Shown here: positions 1 through 12,422 of the stretch, piece after piece
How the letters are laid out: every line of letters starts with the position of its first letter
How positions within the stretch are numbered: the first letter of the stretch is position 1
Assembly (NCBI GenBank): GCA_900314345.1
Contig: OMUX01000199.1
Location: 1 to 12,422 of the forward strand
Reading direction: 5' to 3'
Length of the DNA: 12,422 nt
Source of the DNA: an uncultured Erysipelotrichaceae bacterium
GTDB lineage: Bacteria; Bacillota_I; Bacilli_A; Erysipelotrichales; Erysipelotrichaceae
Translations under genes and position numbers: made by a program
Notes under the pieces: model-generated
Seen by the model: only the letters and a program-made list of their open reading frames with translations
What the model was told of the DNA's origin: nothing
The model's database searches: none

Positions 1-13
1 TAACCTTAGACAT
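1..13 (-). CDS. 5' end of a gene cut by the window edge
   Basis: Only the first four codons (M-S-K-V) are inside the window, so no product can be named. The call rests on context. An extended -10 element lies at 45-53, and a strong Shine-Dalgarno sequence GGAGGAG (plus-strand ctcctcc, 25-31) lies 11 bases before the ATG at 13-11. The gene is transcribed away from the ATPase gene, in the same direction, and appears to have its own promoter. The start codon is inferred, because nothing of the protein beyond residue 4 can be checked. Confidence 0.5.
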
Positions 14-44
14 AAATGATGAATCTCCTCCTTTTTGCGTTGTC

Positions 45-53
45 ATTATAGCA
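45..53 (-). promoter_or_regulatory. Extended -10 promoter of the gene at the left edge
   Basis: The minus strand reads TGCTATAAT here, a perfect -10 hexamer preceded by the TGn extension. The position 17 bases upstream of the hexamer does not match TTGACA, as is common for extended -10 promoters. Transcription would start near position 38 and give a leader of about 25 bases carrying the strong ribosome binding site at 25-31. Confidence 0.6.
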
Positions 54-87
54 CCCGCCATTATTGTGAGTAAACGAACAACAGCAG

Positions 88-112
88 AAATCACGCTGAA
101 AATGCGGTGAAT
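88..112 (-). terminator. Weak candidate hairpin after the ATPase gene
   Basis: On the minus strand TCACCGC and GCGTGA can pair with one bulged C around a 7-base loop (plus-strand arms 91-96 and 104-110). A mixed T-rich stretch follows, without a clean U-run. It lies about 27 bases after the ATPase stop codon and before the next promoter, where a terminator is expected, but the stem is short. Confidence 0.3.
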
Positions 113-136
113 CTGACAACCCCATGCATCTGTCTG

Positions 137-1558
137 TCAGGCAAACAGATCATCCAGTGTGATCACATTGGTATAGACACCGCTGTATTCGTTTTTCTTC
201 AGTCCGAACGTTGTGACAAGTGTGGAACGCACAGCCTTTTTCCTTGATACTTTTTCCGAAAGCATCTCCTGTCTTCCCAGCATTGTCCTGTAATAGCTTT
301 TCTTCACAGAGAAATCATCGCTGTAGAATTTCATCTCGCACATGTTCACGACATTATCCTGTCTGGATATCAGAAGGTCAATCTGAGTTCCTTGATCCTC
401 ATCTTTCACAGCCCAGGCATAATGCACTGTTGCCACACCGGAAATACCAAGTGCTTTCTTAATCTGATTGATGTGATTGAAGCACAGATTCTCAAACGCA
501 AGTCCTCTCCACACAACAATTTCCTGCATGTTGAGATTATCCGTCCAGAAACTCTCTTCTCTGCTTTCACTTAGAAAGCGAAGATAGAACAGACAGTAAG
601 GGTCAATGAGCTTATAATATTCCTGTTTTCTCGGAACATCAAACGGTACATACTTCACAATGAAATCACCTGCAATCAATGCTTTCAGATTCTTGGTCAA
701 TGTACCGCCGTCTGCGACCTTCAGTTTTCTGGCAATTTCCTTCCTGGTGAATCCCATCTTCCGTGTACTCAGAAGACATACAATTTCCTTCACTGCATCA
801 GGGCTCACAAACAGTGACGAAAAGAGGCGATCGTATTCGTCTTTCAGCTTTGCATTTCTGGCAAAAAACAGGTGATCTATATTCTGTGCAAAACTGAGGC
901 TGCCGTCCATGTATCCAAGATAATAAGGAATACCGCCATATGCCATATAACACTGCGCTATATCATAGCGGGAAAACTTCATCTGTCTCTCTTCGAAGAA
1001 TTCTTCACACTCATGCAGCGTGAATGGAGACAGTTTGATCTCATACGTAACACGGTCATACAGCCCGCCATGGTTATTCACCAGCTTGTCCAGAATCCAG
1101 GAATTTGCACTCCCGCAGACAATGACCATCAGATTGTCACGATGGCAGCCCCAGTTGTTCCAGAAGCCTTCAAATGCAGTAATAAAACCCGATCTTGGTG
1201 TATCCATCCATGGCAGTTCATCCAGAAAGATCAATTGTCTGGATCCATCATCAATCTTCTGCAGGTATGTCTCGAGCAGGAAAAACGCCTCCATCCAATC
1301 CTTAGGTTCCTCACACGAAGGCATTCCGTATAGAACAAGAGAACGGTAAAACGCATTCAACTGTTTCTGCAGCATGCCATGCCCATTGTTTTCTACAGGA
1401 GAGAGTCCGGCATGCCGAAATTTGAATTTTCCTTCAAATGTATGATCAATCAGAAAGGTTTTTCCTACACGTCTTCTGCCGTATACTGCAACCAGCTCCG
1501 AACGGTTGCCTTCATAAAGCCGGTTCAATTCCTCAATTTCTTTTTTTCTGCCTATCAT
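137..1558 (-). CDS. AAA/STAND-type ATPase with C-terminal PD-(D/E)XK-like domain (archaeal ATPase / DUF234 type)
   Basis: The 473-residue protein has three visible parts. The N-terminal P-loop NTPase shows a Walker A GRRRVGKT at residues 27-34, a Walker B LIFLDE at 109-114 with acidic residues D113 and E114, a sensor-like CGSANSW, and the GGLYDRVTYEIKLSPF stretch typical of the archaeal ATPase (PF01637) group. A winged-helix-like segment follows around residues 270-305 (FTRKEIARKLKV). The C-terminal part fits a restriction-endonuclease-like core: E356, D394 (QID) and E408-M-K410. Family members often occur in several copies per genome, and their cellular role is not settled. The ATG at 1558 is preceded by GGAG seven bases upstream. 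The gene is monocistronic by its surroundings and sits directly downstream of three tandem palindromes that overlap its predicted promoter. It could be a regulator, a defence factor or a selfish element; the sequence alone does not decide. Confidence 0.85.
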   Translation of the reverse strand: MIGRKKEIEELNRLYEGNRSELVAVYGRRRVGKTFLIDHTFEGKFKFRHAGLSPVENNGHGMLQKQLNAFYRSLVLYGMPSCEEPKDWMEAFFLLETYLQKIDDGSRQLIFLDELPWMDTPRSGFITAFEGFWNNWGCHRDNLMVIVCGSANSWILDKLVNNHGGLYDRVTYEIKLSPFTLHECEEFFEERQMKFSRYDIAQCYMAYGGIPYYLGYMDGSLSFAQNIDHLFFARNAKLKDEYDRLFSSLFVSPDAVKEIVCLLSTRKMGFTRKEIARKLKVADGGTLTKNLKALIAGDFIVKYVPFDVPRKQEYYKLIDPYCLFYLRFLSESREESFWTDNLNMQEIVVWRGLAFENLCFNHINQIKKALGISGVATVHYAWAVKDEDQGTQIDLLISRQDNVVNMCEMKFYSDDFSVKKSYYRTMLGRQEMLSEKVSRKKAVRSTLVTTFGLKKNEYSGVYTNVITLDDLFA

Positions 1559-1574
1559 CCGATTGCTCCGTTTT

Positions 1575-1624
1575 CTTTATTCAGCGGATTTCATTAAAAA
1601 ACATATGATTTCCGCTGATTAAAG
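1575..1624. repeat. Palindrome unit 1 (50 bp)
   Basis: This is the first of three tandem units. Its outer arms are CTTTATTCAGCGGA and TCCGCTGATTAAAG. Folding position i on 51-i gives 17 Watson-Crick pairs out of the outer 20. The unit lies between the predicted -10 element and the ATPase start codon, with its right edge touching the -10. It would therefore fall on the start site and leader of the ATPase mRNA. Confidence 0.9.
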
Positions 1625-1651
1625 TATAATTCTTTCTTTATTCAGCTAAAA
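1623..1651 (-). promoter_or_regulatory. Predicted promoter of the ATPase gene
   Basis: On the minus strand a -10 hexamer TATACT (1628-1623) lies exactly 17 bases after a weak -35 TTTTAG (1651-1646). The -10 sits in the 11-bp linker between palindromes 1 and 2 and overlaps unit 1 by two bases, and the -35 is inside unit 2. Transcription would start near 1616, within unit 1, and give a leader of roughly 58 bases. A protein bound to the palindromes would be expected to compete with RNA polymerase. Confidence 0.5.
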
Positions 1652-1685
1652 GTACATATTTTTATTTATTTTTCGCTGATTAAAG
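1636..1685. repeat. Palindrome unit 2 (50 bp)
   Basis: This is the second tandem unit, 61 bp from the first. Outer arms CTTTATTCAGC and GCTGATTAAAG are identical to unit 1. The inner arms differ in sequence (A/T-rich instead of GGA...TCC) yet remain self-complementary for most positions. The predicted -35 of the ATPase gene lies in its left arm (1646-1651). Confidence 0.9.
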
Positions 1686-1696
1686 CATCAATTTTT

Positions 1697-1746
1697 CTTT
1701 ATTCAGCGGATTTTGGTATTAAACACATGAATTCCGCTGGGCAAAG
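1697..1746. repeat. Palindrome unit 3 (50 bp)
   Basis: This is the third tandem unit, again 61 bp from the previous one. The left arm CTTTATTCAGCGGATTT is identical to unit 1 over 17 bases. The right arm is slightly decayed at its outer end (CCGCTGGGCAAAG instead of CCGCTGATTAAAG). The unit lies between the predicted ATPase promoter and the stop codon of the 49-residue ORF. It is not followed by a T-run on the minus strand, so it does not look like a terminator of that ORF. Confidence 0.88.
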
Positions 1747-1774
1747 CATGGATCACCCCAGAATGCGCTGGCAA

Positions 1775-1924
1775 TCAGCCCTGCTCTTTGTGTTCATTCT
1801 TTTCAGCCAGTTCCGCCTGAATCTCTGCCGCAGTCCTGTCATATTCTTCCTGCAGTGCATCATATTCCCTTCTGACTTCCGGATCCTTCAATGCATTTGC
1901 CTTGTACTCTTCACAGTTCGTCAT
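1775..1924 (-). CDS. Small 49-residue protein resembling the N-terminal arm of HigA-type antitoxins
   Basis: The ORF starts MTNCEEYKANALKDPEVRRE and ends NEHKEQG, followed by TGA. It is highly charged and predicted helical, with no membrane segment or Cys-pair motif. The pattern EEY...LKDPE..xEYDAL..EY is what one sees at the N terminus of many HigA/XRE-type antitoxins, but the helix-turn-helix that normally follows is absent. A GAGGA ribosome binding site (plus-strand tcctc, 1934-1938) lies nine bases before this ATG. The in-frame ATG three codons upstream touches the same site and is too close. No RelE/HigB-like toxin is adjacent. It lies downstream of the glgA terminator and upstream of the palindrome array. 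The family assignment is from memory of the motif and is tentative. Confidence 0.6.
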   Translation of the reverse strand: MTNCEEYKANALKDPEVRREYDALQEEYDRTAAEIQAELAEKNEHKEQG

Positions 1925-1980
1925 AACACTCATTCCTCACGCCTTCAGACCAGCCATGGCTGTACATCACTGCAAGACCA

Positions 1981-2018
1981 GAAGAAAAGCACCTGCACAT
2001 TGCATGCAGATGCTCTTG
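1981..2018 (-). terminator. Rho-independent terminator of the glgCDA operon
   Basis: On the minus strand GCATCTGCA and TGCAGGTGC form a 9-pair stem with one G-T pair around a 7-base loop (plus-strand arms 1989-1997 and 2005-2013). TTTTCTTC follows. It begins 16 bases after the glgA stop codon. Confidence 0.8.
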
Positions 2019-2028
2019 TGTGTAATGC

Positions 2029-3483
2029 TCAGTTATCAGGCCAGTTGCACAGCTGGTAGTACAGCTCTTCATAGATGCCTGCGGATTTCTCCCAGCTGAC
2101 ATCTGATGTCATTGCCGACTTGACCAGGCCCTTCCATCCCGGCTTGTTGTTGTAGTACTGATCCACTGCCCATCTCAGGGTGTAGACCATGTCGTCTGCG
2201 TTGACAGCCCAGAAGCTGAAGCCGTTTCCTTCACCGGTGTACTGGTTGAACGGATGCACGGTATCCTTGAGACCGCCGGTCTCACGGACAAGCGGCAGAG
2301 CACCATAATGCATGGCAATCAGCTGACCGATGCCGCAAGGCTCATAGAGCGAAGGCATCAGGAACAGATCAGAACCTGCATACACACGGTGTGCCAGTTC
2401 TTCATTGTAGCCGCAGTAGTACACAGCCTTGCCCTTGTACTCGCTCTCCATCCACTTGAATGCATTCTCGGCATTCTGCTCACCAGTGCCAAGGACGACA
2501 AACTGTACATCCAGACCCAGGATTTCCTGCAGACGTTCCGTGATCAGGTAGACACCCTTCTGGTTTGTCAGACGGGATACCAGACCGATCAGGCATACAT
2601 CGTTGGTTTCCTTGAGACCAAGTTCCTTCTGCAGAGCCAGCTTGTTTGCCTTCTTGCCGGATACCCAGCTCCTGACATCGTAGTTCTTTGCCAGACGCTT
2701 GTCGGTCTTCGGATTCCATTCGATGGTATCGATGCCGTTGACGATGCCCCAGAGATCTTCACGTCTGTAGCGGAGGACGGAGTCCATCTTCTCGCCATAG
2801 GCCTGTGTCAGGATCTCATTGGAGTATGTCGGGGATACGGTCGTGATCTTGTCGGCATATACAATGCCTGCCTTCATGAAGGAGATGCCGGTGTCGAACT
2901 TGATGGAACCATTGTCGAAATAGTAGTAGTCAAGTCCCAGGCAGCTCGGCAGCATGTCCACGCCGAAGTTGCCCTGGAAGGCAAGGTTGTGGATCGTGAA
3001 GACATGCTTGATGTTCTGGTACCTTCCGTCATCCGCATAGCATGCATGGCATAAGAGCGGAATCATGCCGCACTGCCAGTCATTGCTGTGGATGATGTTA
3101 GGCCACCAGTCGATGAAGTAGATCATGTCGAGCACTGCCCTCTGGAAGAAGGCAAAGCGCTCACCGTCATCCTCATAGCCATACAGGCCGTCTCTTTCGA
3201 AATAGCCCTGATGCTCAATGAAGTAATAGACAACACCGTCAACCGTTGCCGTGTAGTAGGTTGCCGGCTGATCGATCCATCCGGAATGAACCTGGATGGT
3301 GCCGATCCTTGTCAGCTGATCGTAGTACTTCTCGATCACCTTCTTGTACAGCGGAATGACAACACGTGCATCATGTCCGCGCTTGACCAGTTCCCGCGGC
3401 AGGGATGCCACGACATCCGCCAGGCCGCCAGTCTTGATGAACGGCAGTGCCTCTGATGCCACAAAGAGTATTGATCTTCCCAT
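2029..3483 (-). CDS. glgA: Glycogen synthase (ADP-glucose:glucan 4-alpha-glucosyltransferase)
   Basis: GlgA transfers glucose from ADP-glucose to the non-reducing end of an alpha-1,4-glucan in the cytoplasm. The 484-residue length is normal for bacterial GT5 enzymes. The ADP-glucose-binding KTGGL motif is at residues 17-21. HSNDWQ is at 132-137 and TIHNLAFQG at 163-171. SRLTNQKG at 303-310 supplies the Arg and Lys that contact the nucleotide diphosphate. The C-terminal EPCGIGQ motif starts at E381 and is followed by ETGGLKDTV. The start ATG has AGAGGAC eight bases upstream. The gene is the last of glgC-glgD-glgA, 18 bases after glgD, and a terminator follows. Regulation is expected to come from the glgC promoter and its cre site. 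Confidence 0.97.
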   Translation of the reverse strand: MGRSILFVASEALPFIKTGGLADVVASLPRELVKRGHDARVVIPLYKKVIEKYYDQLTRIGTIQVHSGWIDQPATYYTATVDGVVYYFIEHQGYFERDGLYGYEDDGERFAFFQRAVLDMIYFIDWWPNIIHSNDWQCGMIPLLCHACYADDGRYQNIKHVFTIHNLAFQGNFGVDMLPSCLGLDYYYFDNGSIKFDTGISFMKAGIVYADKITTVSPTYSNEILTQAYGEKMDSVLRYRREDLWGIVNGIDTIEWNPKTDKRLAKNYDVRSWVSGKKANKLALQKELGLKETNDVCLIGLVSRLTNQKGVYLITERLQEILGLDVQFVVLGTGEQNAENAFKWMESEYKGKAVYYCGYNEELAHRVYAGSDLFLMPSLYEPCGIGQLIAMHYGALPLVRETGGLKDTVHPFNQYTGEGNGFSFWAVNADDMVYTLRWAVDQYYNNKPGWKGLVKSAMTSDVSWEKSAGIYEELYYQLCNWPDN

Positions 3484-3501
3484 AATGCATGTCCTCTCTA
3501 A

Positions 3502-4614
3502 TCAGATACGGTCTCTTCTCTTGACGTAAACCGGAGCTTCGTTTGTTCCTTCCAGCTTCTTCACGTGATGAACGATGGCATACTTGTCAACGATCACATG
3601 ATCGAGCTTTGCATTCTCACCGATATAGCAGCCCGGCAGCAGGATGCTGTCCTTGACCACTGCACCCTTGCAGATGTGAACATTACGGCTGATCAGGGAT
3701 CCTGTAACATTGCCCTCGATCACACAGCCGTTTGCCACAACGGAGTCGCTGACCTTGCAGTCTGTCGTGTACTTTGTCGGGCAGGAGTCATTGGTCTGTG
3801 TATAGACCGGCCAGCCCGGCTTGAACAGCTGGGAAGCAGTGTGATGATCACGCAGCTCCATGGAGATCCTGTAGTACTCCTCCAGGGAGTTCAGGCATCC
3901 GACAAAGCCCTTGACCGGATAGCCCTTGACATCAAGATCCGGCAGGGAATCCTTCAGGATATCCTTGAACCAGTACAGGCTGGATGTTTCCGCAGCCTTC
4001 TTGACCAGCTCGATGAACAGCTTCTTCTCCATGACATAAGCTTCCATGGAGACATTGATGTTCTTTCTCTTGCCGCGGTTCTTGTCCACAGCCGTAACGC
4101 TTCTTGTCTTGTCGACGGCCAGTGTATCGCAGCCAAGGAATGCCTGCTTGCCATTGCTTGTGGAAGTATAGAGCACGGTGACATCCGCCTTGGAGTCAAC
4201 ATGCTGCTTGAGCACTTCATTGAAGTCAATGGAATAGACGAAGTAGGACGGAGCGATCACGACATACGGATTGTTGTCCTCTTCGATGTACTGCATGTTG
4301 AGCATGTAGTTTGCAACGTCATGGTTGTAGACCTGTGACGCAAACGGCTTCTCGCCATACAGGATACGAAGCTTGCCTCTCTTGGAGTTGATGTTGTAGT
4401 GGCTTCCGTCTCCCAGATGCTCAAACAGATTACGCGGCTTCTCCTTGCAGTAGACCTGTACATTGTCGATGCCGGAGTTTGTCATGTCGGAGAGAATGAA
4501 GTCGATGACTCTGTAACGGCCCATGAATGCCATTGCCGGAACCGGACGGAAATCGCCAAGTCCTTCAATGTCAGCCGTGCTGTCTTCAAATGTGATAATA
4601 CCAAGTGCGCGCAT
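3502..4614 (-). CDS. glgD: GlgD, non-catalytic subunit of glucose-1-phosphate adenylyltransferase
   Basis: GlgD partners GlgC in the hetero-oligomeric ADP-glucose pyrophosphorylase of many Bacillota. The 370-residue protein keeps the nucleotidyltransferase fold (GRYRVIDFILSDMTNSGI near residues 32-49) and the C-terminal left-handed beta-helix of acyltransferase-like repeats. The catalytic loop is degenerate: GlgC has LAGGRGTRL where this protein has LGIITFEDS, and the SGDHIYKM motif of GlgC is replaced by APSYFVYS. It is therefore expected to be structural or regulatory, as described for Bacillota GlgD. A strong AGGAGG lies just upstream of the ATG. It starts 12 bases after the glgC stop, so the two are co-transcribed and probably produced together for complex assembly. 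Confidence 0.95.
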   Translation of the reverse strand: MRALGIITFEDSTADIEGLGDFRPVPAMAFMGRYRVIDFILSDMTNSGIDNVQVYCKEKPRNLFEHLGDGSHYNINSKRGKLRILYGEKPFASQVYNHDVANYMLNMQYIEEDNNPYVVIAPSYFVYSIDFNEVLKQHVDSKADVTVLYTSTSNGKQAFLGCDTLAVDKTRSVTAVDKNRGKRKNINVSMEAYVMEKKLFIELVKKAAETSSLYWFKDILKDSLPDLDVKGYPVKGFVGCLNSLEEYYRISMELRDHHTASQLFKPGWPVYTQTNDSCPTKYTTDCKVSDSVVANGCVIEGNVTGSLISRNVHICKGAVVKDSILLPGCYIGENAKLDHVIVDKYAIVHHVKKLEGTNEAPVYVKRRDRI

Positions 4615-4626
4615 ATCTTCCTCCTC

Positions 4627-5760
4627 TTACTCCACAAACTTGCTTGCGACCAGCTCAATATGCTCGCTGTCCTTCGCGCCGACAACTGCCCCCGGTGCAA
4701 TCTCCACATCATCTGCCACGATGCAGCGTGTAACGCTTGCACCATCGCCGATCTTAGCGCCAGGCATGACAACGGAATCAATGACCTTGGCTCCCTTGCC
4801 GATCACGCAGTTGGTGCCAAGCACGCTGTTCTTGACAGCACCGTCAATCACGCAGCCCTGTGTCGTATAGCTGTTGGTGACTTCAGCTTCCTTGCCGATG
4901 AACTGCGGCAGTGCGTTGACATCCTCGGTATAGATCTTCCATGTCGGATCGCCCAGATCCAGATCGCTGTTGTTCTTGAGCAGATCCATGTTTGCCTCCC
5001 AGAGGGAGTCAATGGTACCGACATCCATCCAGTAGCCTTCGAATCTGTAGGCTGCCAGTCTTCTCTTGTCATTGAGATATGCAGGGATGATGTCCTTGCC
5101 GAAGTCGTGATTGGATTCCGGATTCTTCATATCCGCCACCAGATACTTGCGGAACATCTTGTAGCTGAAGATATAGACGCCCATGGATGCCAGGTTGCTC
5201 TTCGGCTTTGCCGGCTTCTCTTCGAACTCGACAATCATGTCATCCTTGTTGGTGTTCATGATGCCGAAGCGGCTTGCTTCCTTGAGCGGAACAGGACGCA
5301 CGGCAATCGTGATGTCTGCCTGCTTTTCCTTGTGGAACGCAAGCATCTTGTCGTAGTTCATCTTGTAGATGTGGTCGCCGGAAAGGATCAGCACATATTC
5401 CGGATTCACGCTGTCAAGGAAATCCAGGTTCTGGGAAATGGCATCTGCTGTGCCACGGTAGACCTCCAGACCCCCTTCATCCTTTTCACGCGGTGTCAGG
5501 ACATAGACGCCGCCGTCATTGGTGTCCAGACCCCAGAAATGATCACGTGCTACGTAGGAATTGAGTAAAACGGATTCGTACTGCGTCAGAACACCGACAG
5601 TCTTGATGTCAGAGTTTGCGCAGTTGCTGAGTGGAAAGTCGATGATCCTGTACTTACCGCCAAAGTGCACTGCCGGCTTTGCGACCTTCTTTGTCAGGTC
5701 TTTCAGACGCGTGCCTCTGCCGCCTGCCAGGATCATGGCTACCATTGTGTTCGCTCTCAT
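4627..5760 (-). CDS. glgC: Glucose-1-phosphate adenylyltransferase, catalytic subunit
   Basis: GlgC makes ADP-glucose and pyrophosphate from ATP and glucose-1-phosphate, the committed step of bacterial glycogen synthesis. The 377-residue protein carries the nucleotide-binding loop GGRGTRL at residues 13-19, [23 protein letters not shown], the metal-binding SGDHIYKM, and the sugar-phosphate-binding [25 protein letters not shown] is present, followed by hexapeptide-type beta-helix repeats. All landmarks missing from the neighbouring GlgD are present here. The ATG at 5760 is chosen because GGGAGG lies nine bases upstream; the internal Met at residue 6 has no such site. It is the first gene of the glg operon, preceded by a promoter with an overlapping cre site. 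Confidence 0.97.
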
Positions 5761-5792
5761 GATTATCTGCCTCCCGAGATAGAATATGGTAA

Positions 5793-5806
5793 TGATATCG
5801 CTTTCA
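5793..5806. promoter_or_regulatory. Catabolite responsive element (CcpA site) at the glgC promoter
   Basis: The minus strand reads TGAAAGCGATATCA, which matches every position of the Bacillota cre consensus TGWAANCGNTNWCA. It abuts the -10 and covers the expected transcription start, a placement that in known cases gives repression by CcpA with HPr-Ser46-P. The glycogen operon is therefore expected to be reduced when a preferred sugar is plentiful. CcpA itself is not in the window. Confidence 0.75.
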
Positions 5807-5833
5807 TTATATACGGAAATCTGCTTGAATGAA
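5806..5833 (-). promoter_or_regulatory. Promoter of the glgCDA operon
   Basis: On the minus strand a perfect TATAAT (5811-5806) lies 16 bases after a weak -35 TTCATT (5833-5828). Transcription would begin near 5799, giving a leader of about 40 bases before glgC. The intergenic space of about 100 bases between ung and glgC holds no other obvious promoter. Confidence 0.65.
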
Positions 5834-5863
5834 CAAGATTAAATGCTTTGCTTTCCATTCATC

Positions 5864-6538
5864 CTACTTCTTCACATCAGGAATCTGCCAGTCGATGGGT
5901 TTCTGTCCATGTGCCTCAAGGAATTCATTCGTCTTCCGGAAATGTCCGCAGCCGAAGAATCCGTTGTACGCACTCAGCGGGCTTGGATGCGCCGCCTCCA
6001 GGACCAGATGCCGTTGATGATCGATCATGGAAGCCTTGTTCCTGGCATTCCTTCCCCACAGAAGGAATACCACCGGATCCTGTTTCTCATTGATGTGCTG
6101 AATTGCATGATCCGTGAAGGTTTCCCAGCCGTGTCCTGCATGGCTGTTGGCCTGTCCCCTTCGCACCGTCATGACCGTGTTGAGCAGGAATACACCCTGC
6201 CTTGCCCATGGCATCAGCCATCCGTTGTCCGGAACCTTGCAGCCAAGCTCAGCATTCAGTTCCTTGAAGATGTTCACAAGGCTCGGCGGGATATCCACGC
6301 CCGGATTCACCGAGAAGCACATGCCGTGCGCCTGGCCCGGTTCATGATAAGGATCCTGTCCCAGGATCACCACACGTACATCCGGATAGTCCGTGTTTTC
6401 AAAGGCGGAAAACACCTTTGCCTTGGGCGGATAGATTTCCCGGTGTGCATACTCTTCATGCACAAAGGATGCCAGATCCTTGAAATACGGCTGCGCCCAT
6501 TCTTCCTGCAGCCAGGGCCACCAATCGTTGTGTACCAT
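5864..6538 (-). CDS. ung: Uracil-DNA glycosylase (family 1)
   Basis: Ung removes uracil from DNA and starts base-excision repair. The 224-residue protein is of standard size. The water-activating motif GQDPYH is at residues 60-65, with catalytic D62. GMCFSV, the uracil-pocket LLN of VFLLNTV, and the minor-groove loop HPSPLS with H184 are all present, so the enzyme should be active. Its ATG (6538-6536) shares one base with the TGA of the upstream lipoprotein gene (TGATG). This points to translational coupling and explains why no separate promoter is seen. No convincing terminator follows, so some read-through towards glgC is possible. Confidence 0.97.
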   Translation of the reverse strand: MVHNDWWPWLQEEWAQPYFKDLASFVHEEYAHREIYPPKAKVFSAFENTDYPDVRVVILGQDPYHEPGQAHGMCFSVNPGVDIPPSLVNIFKELNAELGCKVPDNGWLMPWARQGVFLLNTVMTVRRGQANSHAGHGWETFTDHAIQHINEKQDPVVFLLWGRNARNKASMIDHQRHLVLEAAHPSPLSAYNGFFGCGHFRKTNEFLEAHGQKPIDWQIPDVKK

Positions 6539-7932
6539 CAGGACCTGCTCCTTGCCGTCGGTGTCGGCGAAGCCGTTGCCTTTGCCTTATCCCTGGCTTT
6601 CTTCTTCTCACGCTTTGTCACAATCTCTTCCAGATCCTCCCCGTCCAGCCAGCTGCTGATATCCTCAGCCAGCGTATCAAAAGAGCCGTCTTCATCACGC
6701 ATGTCATGACCTGTATCACTGTATGACACCATGGAGACATTGCTTCCCTTCTGGCTCTTCCAGTTCTCATAGTCATCATCCACAGTCGTCTGTGCATCAT
6801 CCTGGCCCTGGAAGATGGCAATCGGCTGTGCGACATATCTTGTATATTTCAAAGGCTCAGCATCCGCAAAGTCCTGCCACCAGGCAAGCGGGTAGCAACC
6901 CACAGTCTCCGGCACATTGCTTTCCGCATCTTCATCCAGTGCTGCCTGTGCCTCTTCCGCCACACTTTCATCCAGTCCGTAATACTCCGCCATCAGCTTT
7001 GTCCCGTCCCCGTACGGTGCATTGAGCAGCACAAGGCCGCCGGTGATTTCAAAGTGATGATAGAGCGCGGAATAGCCAAAGCTTCCGCCGATCCCGTGTC
7101 CGATGTATACAATGCCCTTCTGAGCATCCACCGGATACTTTTCCAGACTGTGCACTGCACTTGCAAAGTCCCGCCACAGCACCCGGTCCAGGGACAGTTC
7201 ATCCACAGACAGAACCATGGAGGAATCTTCATACAGGCGCATGTCATAGCGGATGCTGGCAATGCCACGCTCAGCAAGGGCATGGGCAAGATCCTTGCGG
7301 AATGAAGGATCATCACCGGATTCATCCATCGCATCATCCAGCTGTTCCGGCATGAGCACTGCAATAAAGGGATACGCTGCTTCAGCCGGCATGGTCAGAA
7401 TGCCTGCCACCTTGGGATCATTGCCGATTTCCACGGCAGTTTCTTCCCAGTCATCATTCTTTTCCGTCTGCGGGATGTCCTGTACCTTCTCCACCACGAG
7501 CCGCAGGATCTCCAGACTCTCATTCATCCTGCAGACGATGTAATACATGGAAGAACCGCACTGCATCAGTGCATAGCCTGCATTGATCCCGTCATTGACG
7601 GAAGAACATGCACTCAGGAAAGACGGTGCTTCCTCCCCGGCTGTATTCTTCCACAATGCCTCCAGATCAGAAGCCGCATGATCCTGCACTACATCCCTGG
7701 CAAACATGGAAGAAATGCTTTCCCAGTCATACTGCGCCGCATAGCCGCCGATCTCTTCCATGGCAGCTGTGATTGTATGGAAATCTGCTGTTAATGGCAC
7801 CGGTGTGGGCGGTACTGCTGTTGGTGTCGGTGAAACCACAGCCGCAGCTTCCGAGGCACTGCCGCAGCCTGCAAGCACAAGGCAAAGCAGGCATATGATG
7901 CATTTACGCAAGCGGATCATCCTTATGGTCAT
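6538..7932 (-). CDS. Lipoprotein with DUF3887-like and alpha/beta-hydrolase-like domains, nucleophile Ser replaced by Gly
   Basis: The N terminus has basic residues, a hydrophobic stretch and a lipobox LAGC with the lipidated Cys at residue 23, so the protein should be anchored outside the membrane. A Pro/Thr linker follows. Next comes an N-terminal module resembling DUF3887 (roughly residues 45-130), then an alpha/beta-hydrolase fold. At the nucleophile elbow the sequence reads IGHGIGG, where GHSxGG is expected; the Ser position is Gly (residue 280, GGG codon at 7095-7093). The acid-bearing GQDDAQ and a His in DTGHDM remain. The tail is Lys/Arg-rich and then Pro/Thr-rich. Start choice is open: ATG 7932 and ATG 7920 are both in frame and neither has a good ribosome binding site. 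Both overlap the end of the DUF885 gene, so coupling is likely. A TTG at 8010 would put extra residues before the signal peptide and is unlikely. Confidence 0.82.
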   Translation of the reverse strand: MTIRMIRLRKCIICLLCLVLAGCGSASEAAAVVSPTPTAVPPTPVPLTADFHTITAAMEEIGGYAAQYDWESISSMFARDVVQDHAASDLEALWKNTAGEEAPSFLSACSSVNDGINAGYALMQCGSSMYYIVCRMNESLEILRLVVEKVQDIPQTEKNDDWEETAVEIGNDPKVAGILTMPAEAAYPFIAVLMPEQLDDAMDESGDDPSFRKDLAHALAERGIASIRYDMRLYEDSSMVLSVDELSLDRVLWRDFASAVHSLEKYPVDAQKGIVYIGHGIGGSFGYSALYHHFEITGGLVLLNAPYGDGTKLMAEYYGLDESVAEEAQAALDEDAESNVPETVGCYPLAWWQDFADAEPLKYTRYVAQPIAIFQGQDDAQTTVDDDYENWKSQKGSNVSMVSYSDTGHDMRDEDGSFDTLAEDISSWLDGEDLEEIVTKREKKKARDKAKATASPTPTARSRS

Positions 7933-9829
7933 GATAAAGGGCAAGCAGCACAACAAGCACGACAACACCGATGGCACTGAAAATGACAATATGTCCCTTC
8001 TTTGTCTCAAAGAAGCTTACCTGTCCATGAGAAGAAGGAAGTGTTGTCGTGGAAGAATCATTGTTTCCGAACAGATCCTCCTTGCCTACACCCTTGCTTT
8101 CAATCCAGGCCTCTACATCCGCACTCACGGATTCAAACGGGCGGTCGCCGTTTTCCAGAAGCACCTCATGGTACTCTTCCAGATCAAAGGCATTTCCAAG
8201 TCTGTCTTCCGCATCCTTCTGCGTCATCATGAACTGTGCAAGACCGCAGCCATACGGCAGGATCAGTCCCGGATTATCAACGACATAGTTGTACAGTGAC
8301 TGGGCAGCGTCTTCGTTGAGACCGACATCAGCCATCCACTTTGCAAGTTCGGATTCCGTATATCCAAGTCCGTTGACTGCCAGATCCGCAGCTGCATTGT
8401 ATGTATATCCCACTGCTGTGTTCAGCCACTGCAGCTGCTGGGCTGTTTCACTCAATGTGCTGTGCATCAGGGCATTCTGCTCTGCCGTCATTGCCCAGCC
8501 CTCGGTATAGCCGATGGCACCGGTGGCGGAACGGATCATGCTTGGATTGGTATTGAGATACCAGGTGATCTGGTACAGATGCCCTGGGAATCCCTCATGG
8601 GCAAGGGTTGTGTACATGGTTGTTGTATCACTGACGTTGTCACCGTTGATCTTGATCACATTGTCCTTGATATCATCAATCGGCGGCTCCATGTAGTAAG
8701 CCATGGTCGTGTCATTGGCAACACTGGGATCCAGATAGCTGGCCTTGTAGGTCACTTCAGGTCCTTCCGGATAATCCTGCAGCTGTCCCTGCAGATAGCT
8801 CAGAACCTCTTCCGGTGTCATGTCATCAATGGTTTCCGTTTCTGCCTTGTCCATGGCAGAAGGATCCTTCTGATAAAGTTCAATGTAGTCATCGACCAGG
8901 GAAATGGTGTAATCATTGCACAGATCAAACAGCTCCTGCACGGACTTGTCAGAAGAACACTTGTACTGTGCAAGTTCTGTATAGTAGTCCTTTCCTTCCT
9001 GGCCATAGTTGGCGTATCCGCCCTCATAGCTCCGGCTTCCCCGCAGCTTCTCCAGCTCCTGTCCGGCTTTCTGATATGCAGGAATATAGGAATTCAGAAC
9101 CAGATCCCTGTTTCTTGCCTTGTAGTCTTCCTTCTCAGCATCCGTCAGATAATCAGCCGCATCCACATTCTCTTCAAAGATCACGATGAGCTGATTGTCA
9201 TCCGTCTTGGCACAGAACTTATCAATGCTGTCTTCTGTGTCATCCAGCTGACTGTCCGTTAAGAACAGTCCCTTTTCCGCCTGAGCCTTTGTTGTCTCCA
9301 GTGCTTCATCAATGTATTGCGGAACAGAAGCCAGCACATCCAGATAATCATCGAAGTCCTGCTTTTCATAGAAGATGAATTCCGTGAAGTTTGTCAGCAG
9401 GTTTGAGATGATGCCGGCAGAATCAGAGAAGATCTGATCCTCCATCGGGTATTCATTCAATGCAATCATGTGCTTCAGGTAGAAATGATAGGCATCATAG
9501 TCATGTTTCTGCCTGTCGCTCAGACTGTCATAGTCAAAGGATTCCAGCTTTTCCAGCGAAGCCTTTCCATCCTCCGCAGCGTCCGCATAGCTCTGCAGTG
9601 TTGCATCACCGATCGTTGTCTCCGGTTTCTCAATTCCGTACTTCTGGTAATCCCGGATGCCGAAATGCATGGACATGTAGTCCTGTTCCATGGCATCGAC
9701 ATATTCTTCCTGCAGGAATGCATCAAAGTCTGCATTATCTTCGTTTTCCGCATATACAGGGAATACCGGTACTGCAATCATCACTGACATGGCCACCGCA
9801 GCCAGCTTCCTCAAGATCCTGTATGACAT
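7904..9829 (-). CDS. Exported, membrane-anchored DUF885-family metallopeptidase-like protein
   Basis: The 641-residue protein begins with an N-terminal signal sequence (basic RILRK, hydrophobic stretch, Ala-rich end before AENED). Most of the chain is the DUF885 fold, a family related to zinc carboxypeptidases. The zinc motif HEGFPGH is at residues 411-417, and the third-ligand motif EGWAM starts at E443, 26 residues later, so the metal site looks intact. Near the C terminus a hydrophobic segment (GHIVIFSAIGVVVLVVLLAL) is followed by a short charged tail, consistent with anchoring at the outer membrane face. The ATG at 9829 is chosen because GGAGG sits six bases upstream; the ATG two codons earlier touches it. 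The downstream lipoprotein gene overlaps its end by 29 or 17 bases. The substrate is unknown; a role in cell-surface peptide processing is inference. Confidence 0.88.
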   Translation of the reverse strand: MSYRILRKLAAVAMSVMIAVPVFPVYAENEDNADFDAFLQEEYVDAMEQDYMSMHFGIRDYQKYGIEKPETTIGDATLQSYADAAEDGKASLEKLESFDYDSLSDRQKHDYDAYHFYLKHMIALNEYPMEDQIFSDSAGIISNLLTNFTEFIFYEKQDFDDYLDVLASVPQYIDEALETTKAQAEKGLFLTDSQLDDTEDSIDKFCAKTDDNQLIVIFEENVDAADYLTDAEKEDYKARNRDLVLNSYIPAYQKAGQELEKLRGSRSYEGGYANYGQEGKDYYTELAQYKCSSDKSVQELFDLCNDYTISLVDDYIELYQKDPSAMDKAETETIDDMTPEEVLSYLQGQLQDYPEGPEVTYKASYLDPSVANDTTMAYYMEPPIDDIKDNVIKINGDNVSDTTTMYTTLAHEGFPGHLYQITWYLNTNPSMIRSATGAIGYTEGWAMTAEQNALMHSTLSETAQQLQWLNTAVGYTYNAAADLAVNGLGYTESELAKWMADVGLNEDAAQSLYNYVVDNPGLILPYGCGLAQFMMTQKDAEDRLGNAFDLEEYHEVLLENGDRPFESVSADVEAWIESKGVGKEDLFGNNDSSTTTLPSSHGQVSFFETKKGHIVIFSAIGVVVLVVLLALYHDHKDDPLA

Positions 9830-9852
9830 AATCATCCTCCGCTGATGAGTCC

Positions 9853-9861
9853 ATGATAGCA
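9853..9861 (-). promoter_or_regulatory. Extended -10 promoter of the DUF885-lipoprotein-ung unit
   Basis: The minus strand reads TGCTATCAT, an extended -10 with one mismatch to TATAAT. It lies just after the terminator of the surface-protein gene and 23 bases before the DUF885 ATG. No good -35 is seen. Its position between a terminator and a ribosome binding site supports the call. Confidence 0.45.
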
Positions 9862-9873
9862 CAACTCCATAGT

Positions 9874-9904
9874 CCAAAAGACACCGGCAGGTCATGCCGG
9901 TGTC
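9874..9904 (-). terminator. Rho-independent terminator of the surface-protein gene
   Basis: On the minus strand GACACCGGCA and TGCCGGTGTC form a perfect 10-bp stem around a 5-base loop (plus-strand arms 9880-9889 and 9895-9904). TTTT follows. It starts 14 bases after the stop codon and is the strongest hairpin in the window. Confidence 0.9.
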
Positions 9905-9918
9905 AGGGACAACAATGA

Positions 9919-11937
9919 TTATTTCCGGAGCTTCATCATGGCAAACACTGCCGCCATAAGACTGATCACAAGACTTGTGCACCATCTGCTCAGGCTGAAC
10001 GTATCAGCTGTATACGGGGAGTACGGTGTCCTTTCGCTCTTTCCTGTGTTCGTAGTGAACGGGAGCCTCGGCTTCACGTTCTGTGTCACTGTCGGTGTCG
10101 GTACTGCGGGGACAGGTGTAACAACAGGTGTTGTCTCAGGCACTGGCTGCCATGGAGTAGGAACAGGCACATTTGGTGTCGGCGTAGAAGCAGGTTCCGG
10201 TGTCACATTCGGTGCAGGCGTAGCCGTCGGTGTTGCTGTTGGTACAGCGGTTGGTGTGGCTGTAGGCGTAGCCGTCGGTGTTGCTGTTGGTGTGGCCGTC
10301 GGCGTTGCTGTAGGAGTAGCGGTCGGTGTTGCAGTTGGAGTTGCAGTCGGTGTTGCAGTTGGTGTGGCCGTCGGTGCAGCGATTGGTGTTGCAGTCGGTG
10401 TGGCCGTCGGCGTTGCAGTTGGTGTGGCCGTCGGTGTTGCCGTTGGAGTTGCAGTCGGTGTTGCTGTTGGTGCAGCAGTCGGTGTTGCTGTAGGAGCAGC
10501 CGTTGGTGCAGGTGTCACTTCCGGCGTCGGTGTCGGATTCGGAGCACCAGGAAGTTTGCTGCCATTGTAAGGCCACATATGGCCTTCAGACTGTGCGTTG
10601 ACATTCCTGCCGATGATGCATCCGTTGAAGTTGCCGCCGGAGATATTCACATCCGCATTCGGTGCGACAACATGGCCTGTATAAGCTGTTCCTGTCGTTA
10701 CTGTTGCTGCATCGGGCAGGGCAAAGACGATGCCAATGCCTGATGCAGCTTCAATGCTTGTGCCTTCGCTGCCGTTGATATAGACATGCGGGATTGTATA
10801 GCTTGTGCTGCTGGAATACAGAATGACATCCTGCTGCTCATTGCCTTCTACGTAGATGGCATCAATTGCCAGCCCGGTAATATCGAAGGCATGTCCTGCC
10901 TTTACGGTCAGGGTATTGCCTGGCCACCACTGGCGCATTTCATACGTATACAGATCGTTTGCTGAATCTGCTGATACCTGAACAGCATCCGTCTTCAAGG
11001 ATTCTGCCTGACTTGTCAGCGCCCCTGTCCATTCAGACTGGTTGATGAAGTTATCCGTGTAACGGACTCTTGTCTGATCTGTCAGGTTCTGGTTTGTCTT
11101 ACCGACAACACCGACCTTGTCACGATTCACAATGCTGGTATAGAAGAACAGATCATCGTTGTACATGCTGACCTGGTTTCCGTTGAGTTCTGCAGTCCCG
11201 CCGATATAGGAAGGCACAGTATGAGGTGCACCATCCATGGGCTCTGAAGAAAGACCGCCAAGGGATACCTTGACATTGCCGCCTGCAATCACAGGTCCTA
11301 CCACATGGGTTCCGTTGTAAACTCCGGAAGCGAACACATTGTAATGATTCAGGATATAGCCCAGGGTATATTCACCATGGCGTTCACTCCCGTTTACTTC
11401 ATGGTAGGACGAGAATGTATCCGCTGTTGTCTGATCATCTTCTGCAGACATCATTTCAAATGCAATGGACTCTGCTTCTTCAGGAGATTCTTCTGTATCG
11501 GTTTCCTCCTCTGAAACTTCCGCTGCCTCATCCTCTGTTTCAGCTTCAGACTCCTCTGCATTTACCTCTTCTGCTTCTGTGCTTTCTTCAGTTTCTTCCG
11601 GATCAGATTCAGAAGGATCTGAAGATGGCTGTGCTTCAGCTGCGTCAGGCTCTGTCACATTGTCTTCTGTATTTTCTTCTGCTGCAGGATCCTGGGATAC
11701 CTCTGCACCTTGGTCTGCTGTCTGCTCTGCATCTGAAGCTTCCGGCTGGATTTCTTCTGATGCAGGAATGTCTTCCTCAGATGTCTCAGTTTCTTCTGTT
11801 TCCGTTTCCATTGCCTCAGCTGTTTCTTCAGGCTGTGGTGTTTCCGCATCCTCTGCGTAAATGATTGCATTGGATGTGCCGCTCATCATCATGCATGTGG
11901 CGATGACAGCGACGATGCTTCTGGTCAGTTTCTTCAT
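9919..11937 (-). CDS. Cell-surface protein with choice-of-anchor A adhesive domain, PTAT stalk and C-terminal wall anchor
   Basis: The 672-residue protein has clear zones. Residues 1-28 are a signal peptide with likely cleavage after IIYA. Residues 29 to about 165 are Glu/Ser/Thr/Ala-rich and strongly acidic, with no Lys or Arg. About 185-455 resembles the choice-of-anchor A (collagen-binding-like) domain, with N-terminal [12 protein letters not shown] and GPVIAGGNV, and C-terminal [14 protein letters not shown] and GCIIGRNV. About 463-620 is Pro/Thr-rich and contains about 25 PTAT tetrapeptides (residues 473-574). The tail has LPFTT, then SPYTADTF, a hydrophobic segment and the basic end KLRK, the layout of a sortase substrate although no canonical LPxTG is present. 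AAGGG lies seven bases before the ATG. A terminator follows. It is likely a wall-exposed adhesin; the ligand is unknown. Confidence 0.85.
10216..10510 (-). repeat. 12-bp in-frame repeat coding (PTAT)n stalk
   Basis: About 25 copies of a degenerate 12-bp unit encode Pro-Thr-Ala-Thr, interrupted by variants such as PTAA, PIAA and PTAV. Copies differ mostly at third codon positions (for example GTTGGTGTTGCT against GTCGGTGTGGCC on the plus strand). The unit is a multiple of three, so gain or loss would change stalk length without a frameshift. The same DNA reads as a VAVG repeat on the other strand, which is only a shadow. Confidence 0.9.
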
Positions 11938-12056
11938 TCTTTTTCCCTTGGAATGCTATTGCCCGCACTTCTCTGTCTGTAATTTACGAGAAAGAAGGAA
12001 ATGAATGAATTGCTGAGATTGCTGATTTTTGCAATAATTTGTCCTGCATTTCAGCT

Positions 12057-12077
12057 ATGGTTTTGGCACGAAACCAT
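12057..12077. repeat. Inverted repeat upstream of the surface-protein gene
   Basis: ATGGTTT and AAACCAT are separated by 7 bases. No T-run follows on either strand, so it is not an intrinsic terminator. It lies about 120 bases before the start codon of the surface-protein gene, in the same 205-base gap, where no promoter with good -35 and -10 hexamers could be identified. It could be an operator or a leader hairpin. Confidence 0.4.
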
Positions 12078-12120
12078 TGACATATCCGTTCTTGCTCTGG
12101 ATTGGTCCCACAAGCCACAC

Positions 12121-12143
12121 AAAAAGCTGCTCTTCGCAGCTTT
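12121..12143 (-). terminator. Rho-independent terminator of the zinc-ribbon gene, overlapping its stop codon
   Basis: On the minus strand AAAGCTGC and GCAGCTTT form an 8-bp stem around loop GAAGA (plus-strand arms 12123-12130 and 12136-12143), with TTTTT counted from the end of the stem. The stem begins with the last base of the TGA stop codon. Confidence 0.8.
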
Positions 12144-12385
12144 CAGGAATGAATCACACAGTTAGCTTCCGCCTGTTCCTTTGTCAGCTCATTGAACCCG
12201 CCGCATCTCGGGCATTGCTCAATGTATCTGGTGGATACAGGAAACAGCGGGATGAAGAACAGGGAGAACCAGTTCTGTATCTTCAGGATCTTCCATGGTC
12301 CCTCATACCGGCATCGTCCGCAGGTATACGGCTTTGTCTCTCCGATCACCGTTGTCTTCGGAGAGATGCCGAACAACAGAAACAT
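12143..12385 (-). CDS. Small zinc-ribbon domain protein (zinc_ribbon_15 type)
   Basis: The 80-residue protein begins MFLLFGISPKTTVIGETKP. It has two Cys pairs, CGRC and CPRCGG, separated by a hydrophobic, aromatic stretch (NWFSLFFIPLFPVSTRYIEQ). This layout matches the small zinc-ribbon family of Bacillota, in which two Cys pairs bind one zinc; its function is not known. The ATG at 12385 is chosen because it matches the family N terminus and has a GAGGAAGAG ribosome binding site about eight bases upstream. The longer reading from a GTG at 12418 adds an acidic, unconserved stretch that encodes this site. It ends in its own terminator. Whether it is the last gene of a longer operon cannot be seen. 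Confidence 0.85.
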   Translation of the reverse strand: MFLLFGISPKTTVIGETKPYTCGRCRYEGPWKILKIQNWFSLFFIPLFPVSTRYIEQCPRCGGFNELTKEQAEANCVIHS

Positions 12386-12422
12386 CAGCTCTTCCTCTTC
12401 AGTACGATCATCGTGCACTGTG

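Follow-up and report, generated by a model that had tools for sequence, protein, structure and literature searches.

Among candidate phage-defence families proposed through "guilt by embedding", PDC-S27 is defined by an ATPase fused to a PD-(D/E)XK domain, and the available part of its description reports 3503 archaeal and 4562 bacterial detections (PMC12988326). The family is represented in PADLOC by the profiles PDLC04984 and PDLC04985. We found no tested mechanism for PDC-S27 in the open-access literature.

An integron cassette consists of one ORF and an imperfect-palindrome attC site downstream of that ORF, and its movement depends on an integrase. Palindrome-associated transposable elements have palindromic termini.

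Here we describe a PDC-S27-type gene with three palindromes in front of it, found in a stretch of 12,422 nucleotides (hereafter, the window) from an uncultured Erysipelotrichaceae bacterium (assembly GCA_900314345.1, contig OMUX01000199.1, positions 1 to 12,422 of the forward strand). Comparison with homologous loci leads us to conclude that the palindromes are probably cognate autoregulatory operators of the adjoining ATPase-nuclease gene, moving with that gene as a cassette.

Results

A three-unit palindrome array

Three palindromic units of exactly 50 bp lie at positions 1575 to 1624, 1636 to 1685 and 1697 to 1746, at an exact period of 61 bp, with 11-bp linkers (TATAATTCTTT and CATCAATTTTT) between them. 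The edge of the array is 16 bp upstream of a minus-strand ORF, 137 to 1558, that encodes the ATPase-nuclease protein of 473 amino acids. The left arm, CTTTATTCAGC, is exact in all three units; the right arm, GCTGATTAAAG, is exact in two and has decayed to GCTGGGCAAAG in the third. The palindromes are imperfect. Unit 1, the putative operator nearest the gene (CTTTATTCAGC...GCTGATTAAAG), pairs at 13 of 14 outer positions, unit 2 at 12 and unit 3 at 11, with inverted-repeat scores of 12.5, 11.5 and 7.5, respectively. For comparison, the best score in each of 300 dinucleotide shuffles of positions 1559 to 1910 averaged 7.3, peaked at 11.5, and reached 10 or more in 12 of the 300. By this measure unit 3 alone is no better than chance, and units 1 and 2 are modest. 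The array is nevertheless not a chance product, because its three units are in register and their arms recur. Units 1 and 3 resemble each other at 81% over 57 nt, and the likeness extends to the inner parts.

A preliminary description of this DNA had reported the three units, their period and linkers, and the recurring arms with decay in the third right arm, and these coordinates, lengths and arm sequences were all confirmed. It had also noticed no copy elsewhere in the window, and indeed all five matches to the half-site (an 11-mer, up to one mismatch allowed) fall inside the array. Discovery of the unit scattered across the genome had been named as grounds for dismissing it as an ordinary repeat; we found a single locus: the 2.28-Mb assembly, which is 83% complete, has no further copy when up to three mismatches in the 22 specified bases are allowed. 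The claim that the array spans the predicted promoter of the ATPase gene did not survive in the window itself, where a scan of positions 1450 to 2050 returned no consensus sigma-70 promoter; such overlap is seen in relatives.

No Rfam family was found in the window at gathering thresholds. A CRISPR array was considered and rejected, as there are only three units and the inner parts of units 1 and 3 are alike; no Cas domain appeared in the nine window ORFs given a Pfam scan. Elsewhere in the window, positions 10216 to 10508 hold a tandem repeat encoding a 12-residue linker, the protein concerned having a putative ice-binding-like adhesive domain, and a 490-residue ORF on the minus strand (6538 to 8010) has no Pfam match at E values up to 0.001.

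The ATPase-nuclease protein and its family

PADLOC profile PDLC04984 matches the window protein over residues 1-472 of 473 (E value 4.5e-193, 640.4 bits), and Pfam ATPase_2 (PF01637) matches with 61.7 bits against a gathering cut-off of 33.2. The protein matches no NCBIfam family at E values up to 1, no solved structure by sequence search at E values up to 1, and no transposase or integrase family in the scans run. An AlphaFold2 model (mean pLDDT 91.5, pTM 0.87) lays out an ATPase domain (about residues 1-190, in agreement with Pfam; 989 to 1558, minus strand), a helical part, a winged-helix-like part (about residues 251-319; 602 to 808, minus strand) and a C-terminal domain. With helices at 253-263, 272-279 and 285-296 and strands at 300-303 and 314-317, the model suggests that residues of about 251 to 319 form a winged helix, which would be the part that reads DNA. 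Residues 282-291 (686 to 715, minus strand), which covary best with bases of the palindrome arm core as described below, would be the start of its recognition helix. The nearest solved folds are those of PABY2304 and SSO1545, aligned over residues 1-328 only, so that the nuclease domain lies outside these matches; NLR/CED-4 and Orc1/Cdc6 proteins follow.

Across 57 aligned homologues, E408 and K410 are invariant and D394 is present in at least 90%. We take D394, E408 and K410 to be the PD-(D/E)XK active-site residues, the choice of catalytic positions being our assumption. The conserved residues, the model and the published family description (PMC12988326) together mark a PD-(D/E)XK-like C-terminal domain at about residues 345-473 (140 to 526, minus strand).

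The family is large, with all 8000 of 8000 scored candidates matching, and it is multicopy, with 10 matches in the genome of the window and 22 in genome G015 (fragments included in both) and 11 in G670. By record titles it occurs in Clostridia, Spirochaetes, Bacteroidales, Planctomycetes (Thermoguttaceae), Gammaproteobacteria (Succinivibrionaceae) and Actinomycetes (Olsenella), although many of these records are metagenome bins and single taxon placements may be wrong. Its presence is uneven: 25 of 60 genomes of the genus (E value 0.001), 14 of 294 of the order (1e-80), and 3 of 392 at the phylum level (1e-120). Matches occur in 7 of 50,697 phage records and 118 of 72,556 plasmid records, all below 60% identity. 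COG1373, "Predicted ATPase, AAA + superfamily", appears in a table of transferred gut genes (the available part of PMC10782964); this listing fits mobility, on the supposition that the window protein belongs to COG1373.

Palindromes upstream of homologous genes

We assembled 224 non-redundant homologues, counting proteins identical over residues 21-400 once, and divided them into group A (at least 48% identity), group B (36-48%) and a third class below 36%. An inverted repeat with a score of at least 10 is found no more than 200 bp upstream in 74 of 102 loci of group A, 79 of 93 of group B, and 9 of 28 of the third class. Downstream, the corresponding counts are 31 of 96, 26 of 89 and 5 of 25, which probably include both terminators and real copies of the palindrome; within the gene they are 1 of 102, 0 of 93 and 1 of 28. 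Pooled for homologues of at least 36% identity, such repeats are found upstream in 153 of 195, downstream in 57 of 185 and inside the gene in 1 of 195, with 42 of the 195 lacking a strong one upstream. An earlier set of 100 upstream regions was scored against 40 shuffles of each, and 61 regions outscored every shuffle of their own sequence. Counts for both sets rely on untrained scores. Homologues below 36% identity were left out of the geometry, covariation and cassette tests.

The palindromes share a geometry. Registered on the palindrome centre, the half-site consensus of group A is approximately TTWTAWTTnGCYGYnAA. A leave-one-out half-site matrix, with which pairs were sought without any requirement of symmetry, finds 90 of 102 group A loci passing threshold upstream and 20 downstream, and for group B, where the matrix separates weakly, 81 of 93 upstream and 44 downstream; because each matrix was trained on its own group and close relatives were kept, these counts are optimistic. 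The outer span is 49-50 in 73 of the 102 group A loci (exactly 50 in 58) and 49-52 in 39 of the 93 group B loci. Geometry is kept while arm letters change between homologues. Among the 148 loci with a registered site, 90 have one palindrome with their own motif and 58 have two to four; several spacings occur in the family, and the exact 61-bp array is not general. The preliminary description had suggested testing whether the unit always lies upstream of this ATPase family: most homologues of at least 36% identity do have an inverted repeat in that position (the 153 of 195 above), with letters that differ.

In relatives, palindromes overlap the promoter of the adjoining gene, and the promoters are of different types. 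Of 53 palindromes in a first set, 14 carry a promoter-type TAnnTTTG at offset 28-33. TTGAC occurs in the right arm at offset 31-35 in 9 of 53, and eight of these nine also have TAnAAT at offset 56-59, with a spacer of 17-18 bp in seven and 22 in one. Palindromes occur at loci of five phyla by record titles; the single Olsenella locus, L066, is without one.

Six distant homologues of about 25% identity (L022, L024, L027, L038, L039 and L040) have short direct repeats directly before the start codon; these vary from gene to gene, the TTCAGT type and the ACTCGTAAGT type being examples. These are perhaps a related type of operator.

Neighbouring palindromes are spaced in whole helical turns

Where a locus has several palindromes, their spacing can be compared with the helical repeat of DNA. 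Of 66 spacings 47 were analysed, after 14 that came from near-identical proteins and 5 that did not fall between 40 and 130 bp had been set aside. Of these, 42 fall at 51-54, 59.5-63.5, 71.5-73, 82-85, 95-96 or 105 bp; the remaining five are 65.5, 66.5, 108, 115 and 128 bp. At a period of 10.5 bp the 47 spacings give a vector length of 0.72 (Rayleigh p about 2.5e-11), matched by none of 2000 jittered sets, and the 32 spacings above 57 bp taken alone still give 0.65. The 61-bp period of the window belongs to the six-turn class. Spacing in whole turns fits proteins that touch one another on one face of double-stranded DNA and would be unexpected for RNA hairpins.

Motifs private to their gene in the genomes searched

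Pattern searches in G000, G640 (with the motif of L061) and G671 found the motifs at their own gene only. In G654, the L111 motif has three copies, all at its own locus, while the L086 motif has its own two sites and one three-mismatch place elsewhere; in G668 the L086 motif has one three-mismatch place, which is the site of L120. When paralogues of one genome are compared, their closest arms differ on average at 5.2 of 10 core bases (109 pairs), versus 1.2 of 10 for the two arms within one palindrome (60 palindromes), the latter agreement being partly selected since sites were chosen for symmetry. Of the three cognate palindromes of L111 (G654:C2:282100-283883), the one far upstream and the one downstream agree at every position of a 60-bp stretch that takes in spacer and flank; the start-adjacent copy differs.

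Arms covary with the recognition helix

For the covariation between site and protein we kept loci that had a confidently placed site and a protein of 430 residues or more, which left 77 of 102 in group A and 68 of 93 in group B. Protein columns with 10% or more gaps were removed, as group B otherwise showed a gap artefact at residues 58-63. By mutual information with the core bases, the best ten-residue segment of the protein is 282-291 in both groups, rank 1 of 408 in A and 1 of 449 in B. The same segment ranks 306 (A) and 326 (B) against the outer arm, 143 and 221 against a far-upstream stretch, and 236 and 58 against the 21 nt after the stop codon; against the 21 nt before the start codon it ranks 9 in A, where this stretch often overlaps the palindrome, and 358 in B. 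With sites permuted among proteins, the best segment fell at 282-291 in 4 of 100 trials for A and 1 of 100 for B. The peak height in group B, 3.21, is below the highest permuted maximum, 3.47; in this group it is the location of the peak, not its height, that counts as evidence.

Independent contrasts were drawn on a tree with residues 275-300 masked. In group A, residue 283 (D or non-D) against position d14 (G, T or other) gave 11 concordant, 0 discordant and 2 unchanged of 13 contrasts. Where residue 284 in group A is serine or cysteine, d16 is a non-G base at all 18 usable loci; where it is glycine or asparagine, at 7 of 55. The contrasts for residue 284 in A (4 concordant, 0 discordant and 3 unchanged of 7, p 0.06) and for residue 283 in B (6 concordant, 1 discordant and 7 unchanged of 14, p 0.06) are suggestive. 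Residue 286 against d18 gave 0 concordant, 3 discordant and 5 unchanged of 8, the reverse of the guessed coding. At wing residue 311 in group B, lysine goes with A at d11 (26.5 of 27 weighted sites) and arginine mostly with T (15 of 22). For all of these contrasts, that of residue 283 in group A included, the residue classes were picked after the covariation table of the same data had been viewed, so none of the p values is blind.

A partial-distance test favours the winged helix as a whole, with p 0.003 or 0.040 in group A, depending on how the core is defined, and 0.010 in group B. Under one core definition in group A, segments of the ATPase domain outrank the helix (helix 3, p 0.076; winged helix, p 0.040; ATPase domain, p 0.078); under the other, they do not rank above it (winged helix, p 0.003).

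Taken across these comparisons, the covariation suggests that the gene's own protein reads the arms through its recognition helix. The preliminary idea of a recognition site for the ATPase/nuclease protein thus draws support from both covariation and helical phasing, from which we infer binding. The outer, A/T-rich arm covaries best with a different part of the protein in both groups, residues 118-127 (1178 to 1207 of the window), just after Walker B, the strongest pair in group A being R122 with d23. These residues may make a possible second DNA contact.

The gene and its palindromes as a probable transferred unit

The array and gene lie within a stretch, 14 to 2028, that runs from the stop codon of glgA to the start of a pgk-like gene, of which only 13 nt are in the window; comparison with relatives in the genus indicates that this stretch holds an insertion. 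Over 64 positions, the DNA adjoining this stretch is a 77% match to the region where pgk starts at L284, a PGK by Pfam. Matches to glgA occur in 54 of 60 genomes of the genus, and 29 of these loci were fetched. In 14 of the 29, pgk starts no more than 400 nt from the glgA stop, with ATPase and array absent between. These 14 empty sites, 119-245 nt long, have no resident palindrome of this kind, the best half-site showing 2-4 mismatches of 11. Between glgA and the array, the inserted stretch also contains a minus-strand stub ORF of 49 residues (1775 to 1924), which has no Pfam match and is absent from the 14 empty sites. In our impression the stub presumably resembles the tail of an antitoxin-like protein.

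We collected 37 pairs of loci with at least 80% DNA identity whose comparison is not limited by contig edges. For 26 pairs (14 clusters), chosen for homology ending no more than 60 nt from the stop codon and no more than 400 nt from the start, the two members share neither flank, and ungapped identity beyond the ends is 15-50%. The left end of homology lies a median of 4.5 nt outside the outermost palindrome (24 pairs), at 0 to 57 nt outside its edge in 18 and 18 to 119 nt inside it in 6. The right end lies a median of 2 nt past the stop codon, the observed range of -41 to +11 (26 pairs) being bounded by the selection filter. Four of the other 11 pairs involve L093 or L063, which have shortened ORFs, and end by partner coordinates at +62, +2, -2 and +28. 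The other seven run further: L101/L102 to +1072; L107/L108 and L108/L125 to about -1100 on the left and +64 on the right; and, on the right, L008/L011 to +211, L086/L196 to +165, L221/L226 to +99 and L094/L196 to +77. One pair with unrelated flanks, L142/L148, lies inside a single assembly, G260. Another joins locus L012, from the genus of the window, to L249, whose genome also contains the Lachnospiraceae locus L081.

Direct repeats flank the gene in 31 of 175 cases, as against 1 of 220 control ORFs, and 17 of the 31 hold an inverted repeat with a score of at least 9. A palindrome with the locus's own motif follows the stop codon within 250 bp at 14 of 141 loci, as against 3 of 1410 trials with the motifs of other loci. 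At L241, the gene stands between direct repeats of about 233 bp that contain two palindromes apiece, the downstream repeat being seen in part.

By these comparisons of homologous DNA, the gene and its palindromes look like a transferred unit. The preliminary description had offered a hairpin-repeat element that travels with the gene as one of its possibilities, and this part of it is supported by the 26 pairs with homology bounded by palindrome edge and stop codon.

Discussion

Geometry, promoter overlap in relatives, privacy of motifs, covariation, phasing and co-transfer are the computational support for our reading. Promoter overlap, phasing, privacy and covariation find their simplest account in an operator read by the winged helix of its own protein, and co-transfer is why the palindrome accompanies the gene. 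The winged-helix domain would read the arms, each 50-bp palindrome offering it two half-sites that are separated by about three helical turns, and neighbouring palindromes on one DNA face would allow bound proteins to touch. Binding would most likely repress the gene and so keep a possibly dangerous nuclease low; we favor repression over activation because the site sits on promoter boxes and a nuclease needs to be kept quiet. Some signal would lift the repression, for a phage-defence candidate perhaps infection. What travels would be a cassette of about 1.5-1.6 kb made up of gene and operators, and the recognition helix would diverge jointly with the arms, such that paralogues in one cell would not cross-regulate. 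The locus would then be a self-regulating one-gene mobile cassette, with physical binding, repression, the induction signal and an antiviral role all as predicted properties of it. Three observations count against a simple operator account: the outer-arm covariation with residues 118-127, the homologues with no detectable palindrome, and the palindromes after the stop codon (14 of 141 loci), since autorepression needs none there.

The last of these is the arrangement that a cassette between two sites would leave, and it belongs to a reading that we regard as possible though doubtful, in which the palindrome is, or is also, a recombination or attachment site where the protein binds and cuts, the palindrome region and ORF moving as a self-mobilising cassette. 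Homology running from just outside the palindrome to just past the stop in 26 pairs, and the excess of flanking direct repeats over control ORFs, point the same way. Yet the 14 empty glgA-pgk sites have no resident palindrome of such kind, the scans run on the protein gave no match to a transposase or integrase family, a downstream copy is absent from most loci, and the direct repeats could stem from tandem duplication; phasing and promoter overlap, moreover, are explained by regulation and not by movement. A broader proposal, unlikely in our estimate, holds that PDC-S27-type genes are self-mobilising one-gene elements, for which the palindrome would be promoter-operator, mark of self and boundary of the moving DNA. 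Each protein would read its own palindrome alone, through residues 282-291 and the wing, and helix and palindrome would change together, escaping cross-control and giving rise to a recognition code across thousands of proteins.

Since they lie on promoters in relatives, the palindromes might be thought operators for a host transcription factor common to other genes, but this is very improbable: the motifs occur nearly exclusively at their own gene (in G000, G640 and G671, for L111 in G654, and for L086 in G654 apart from one three-mismatch place), arms differ between paralogues of one genome, the palindromes are found in five phyla by record titles with different promoter types, and they covary with the recognition helix of their own protein. 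Even less probable are RNA hairpins in the 5' leader, acting as an attenuator or mRNA structure, as imperfect inverted repeats near a start codon might suggest. In many relatives a -35 or -7 box lies inside the right arm, which would leave most of the palindrome untranscribed; unit spacing tracks the DNA helical repeat; and arm mismatches show no G-T excess (8 G-T, 14 A-C, 42 other), which also speaks against an RNA hairpin. An ordinary dispersed repeat or hairpin element, there by chance, would be in keeping with the tandem 61-bp period, but the assembly has the unit at one locus only, and homologues have upstream palindromes that share the geometry and differ in their letters, leaving this explanation a negligible probability.

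If the cognate-operator reading is true, each gene carries a private DNA site for its own protein, and binding, repression and induction become assayable together. The many natural protein-site pairs (148 registered) would then spell out the code by which the winged helix of an NLR-like ATPase recognises its site. Separate specificities would allow many paralogues per cell. A large candidate immune family would be opened to direct experiments. Given how sharp the cassette ends are, one may also ask by what means a single gene passes from one phylum to another.

Parts of this picture are already known: the protein family as a candidate, and autoregulatory palindromes as a kind. In the open-access literature, a body outside which most subscription papers and all bioRxiv preprints fall, we came upon no account of operators that are private and co-diversify, and none of a one-gene cassette that ends in this way. 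The window protein is a full-length match to PDLC04984 and shares with PDC-S27 the fusion of ATPase to PD-(D/E)XK, whereas operator, palindrome, recognition code and mobile unit do not figure in the available part of the family's description (PMC12988326). The archaeal ATPases SSO1545 (2fna) and PABY2304 (2qen), with matches that stop at residue 328, leave the C-terminal nuclease domain uncovered. Archaeal Orc1/Cdc6 proteins bind origin repeats (2qby); here the sites are on promoters, the protein has a nuclease domain, and an origin function is unsupported. Integron gene cassettes are alike in pairing one ORF with one imperfect palindrome, and a second site, where present here, often starts soon after the stop; unlike theirs, the palindrome at these loci lies upstream, together with the promoter, each gene has private letters in it, and most copies are without a second site. 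Among STAND-type regulators and immune receptors (CED-4, plant NLRs, IniR, Rx1), IniR, according to the available part of its description, controls another operon, iniBAC, whereas here the site is at the protein's own gene and changes with the protein.
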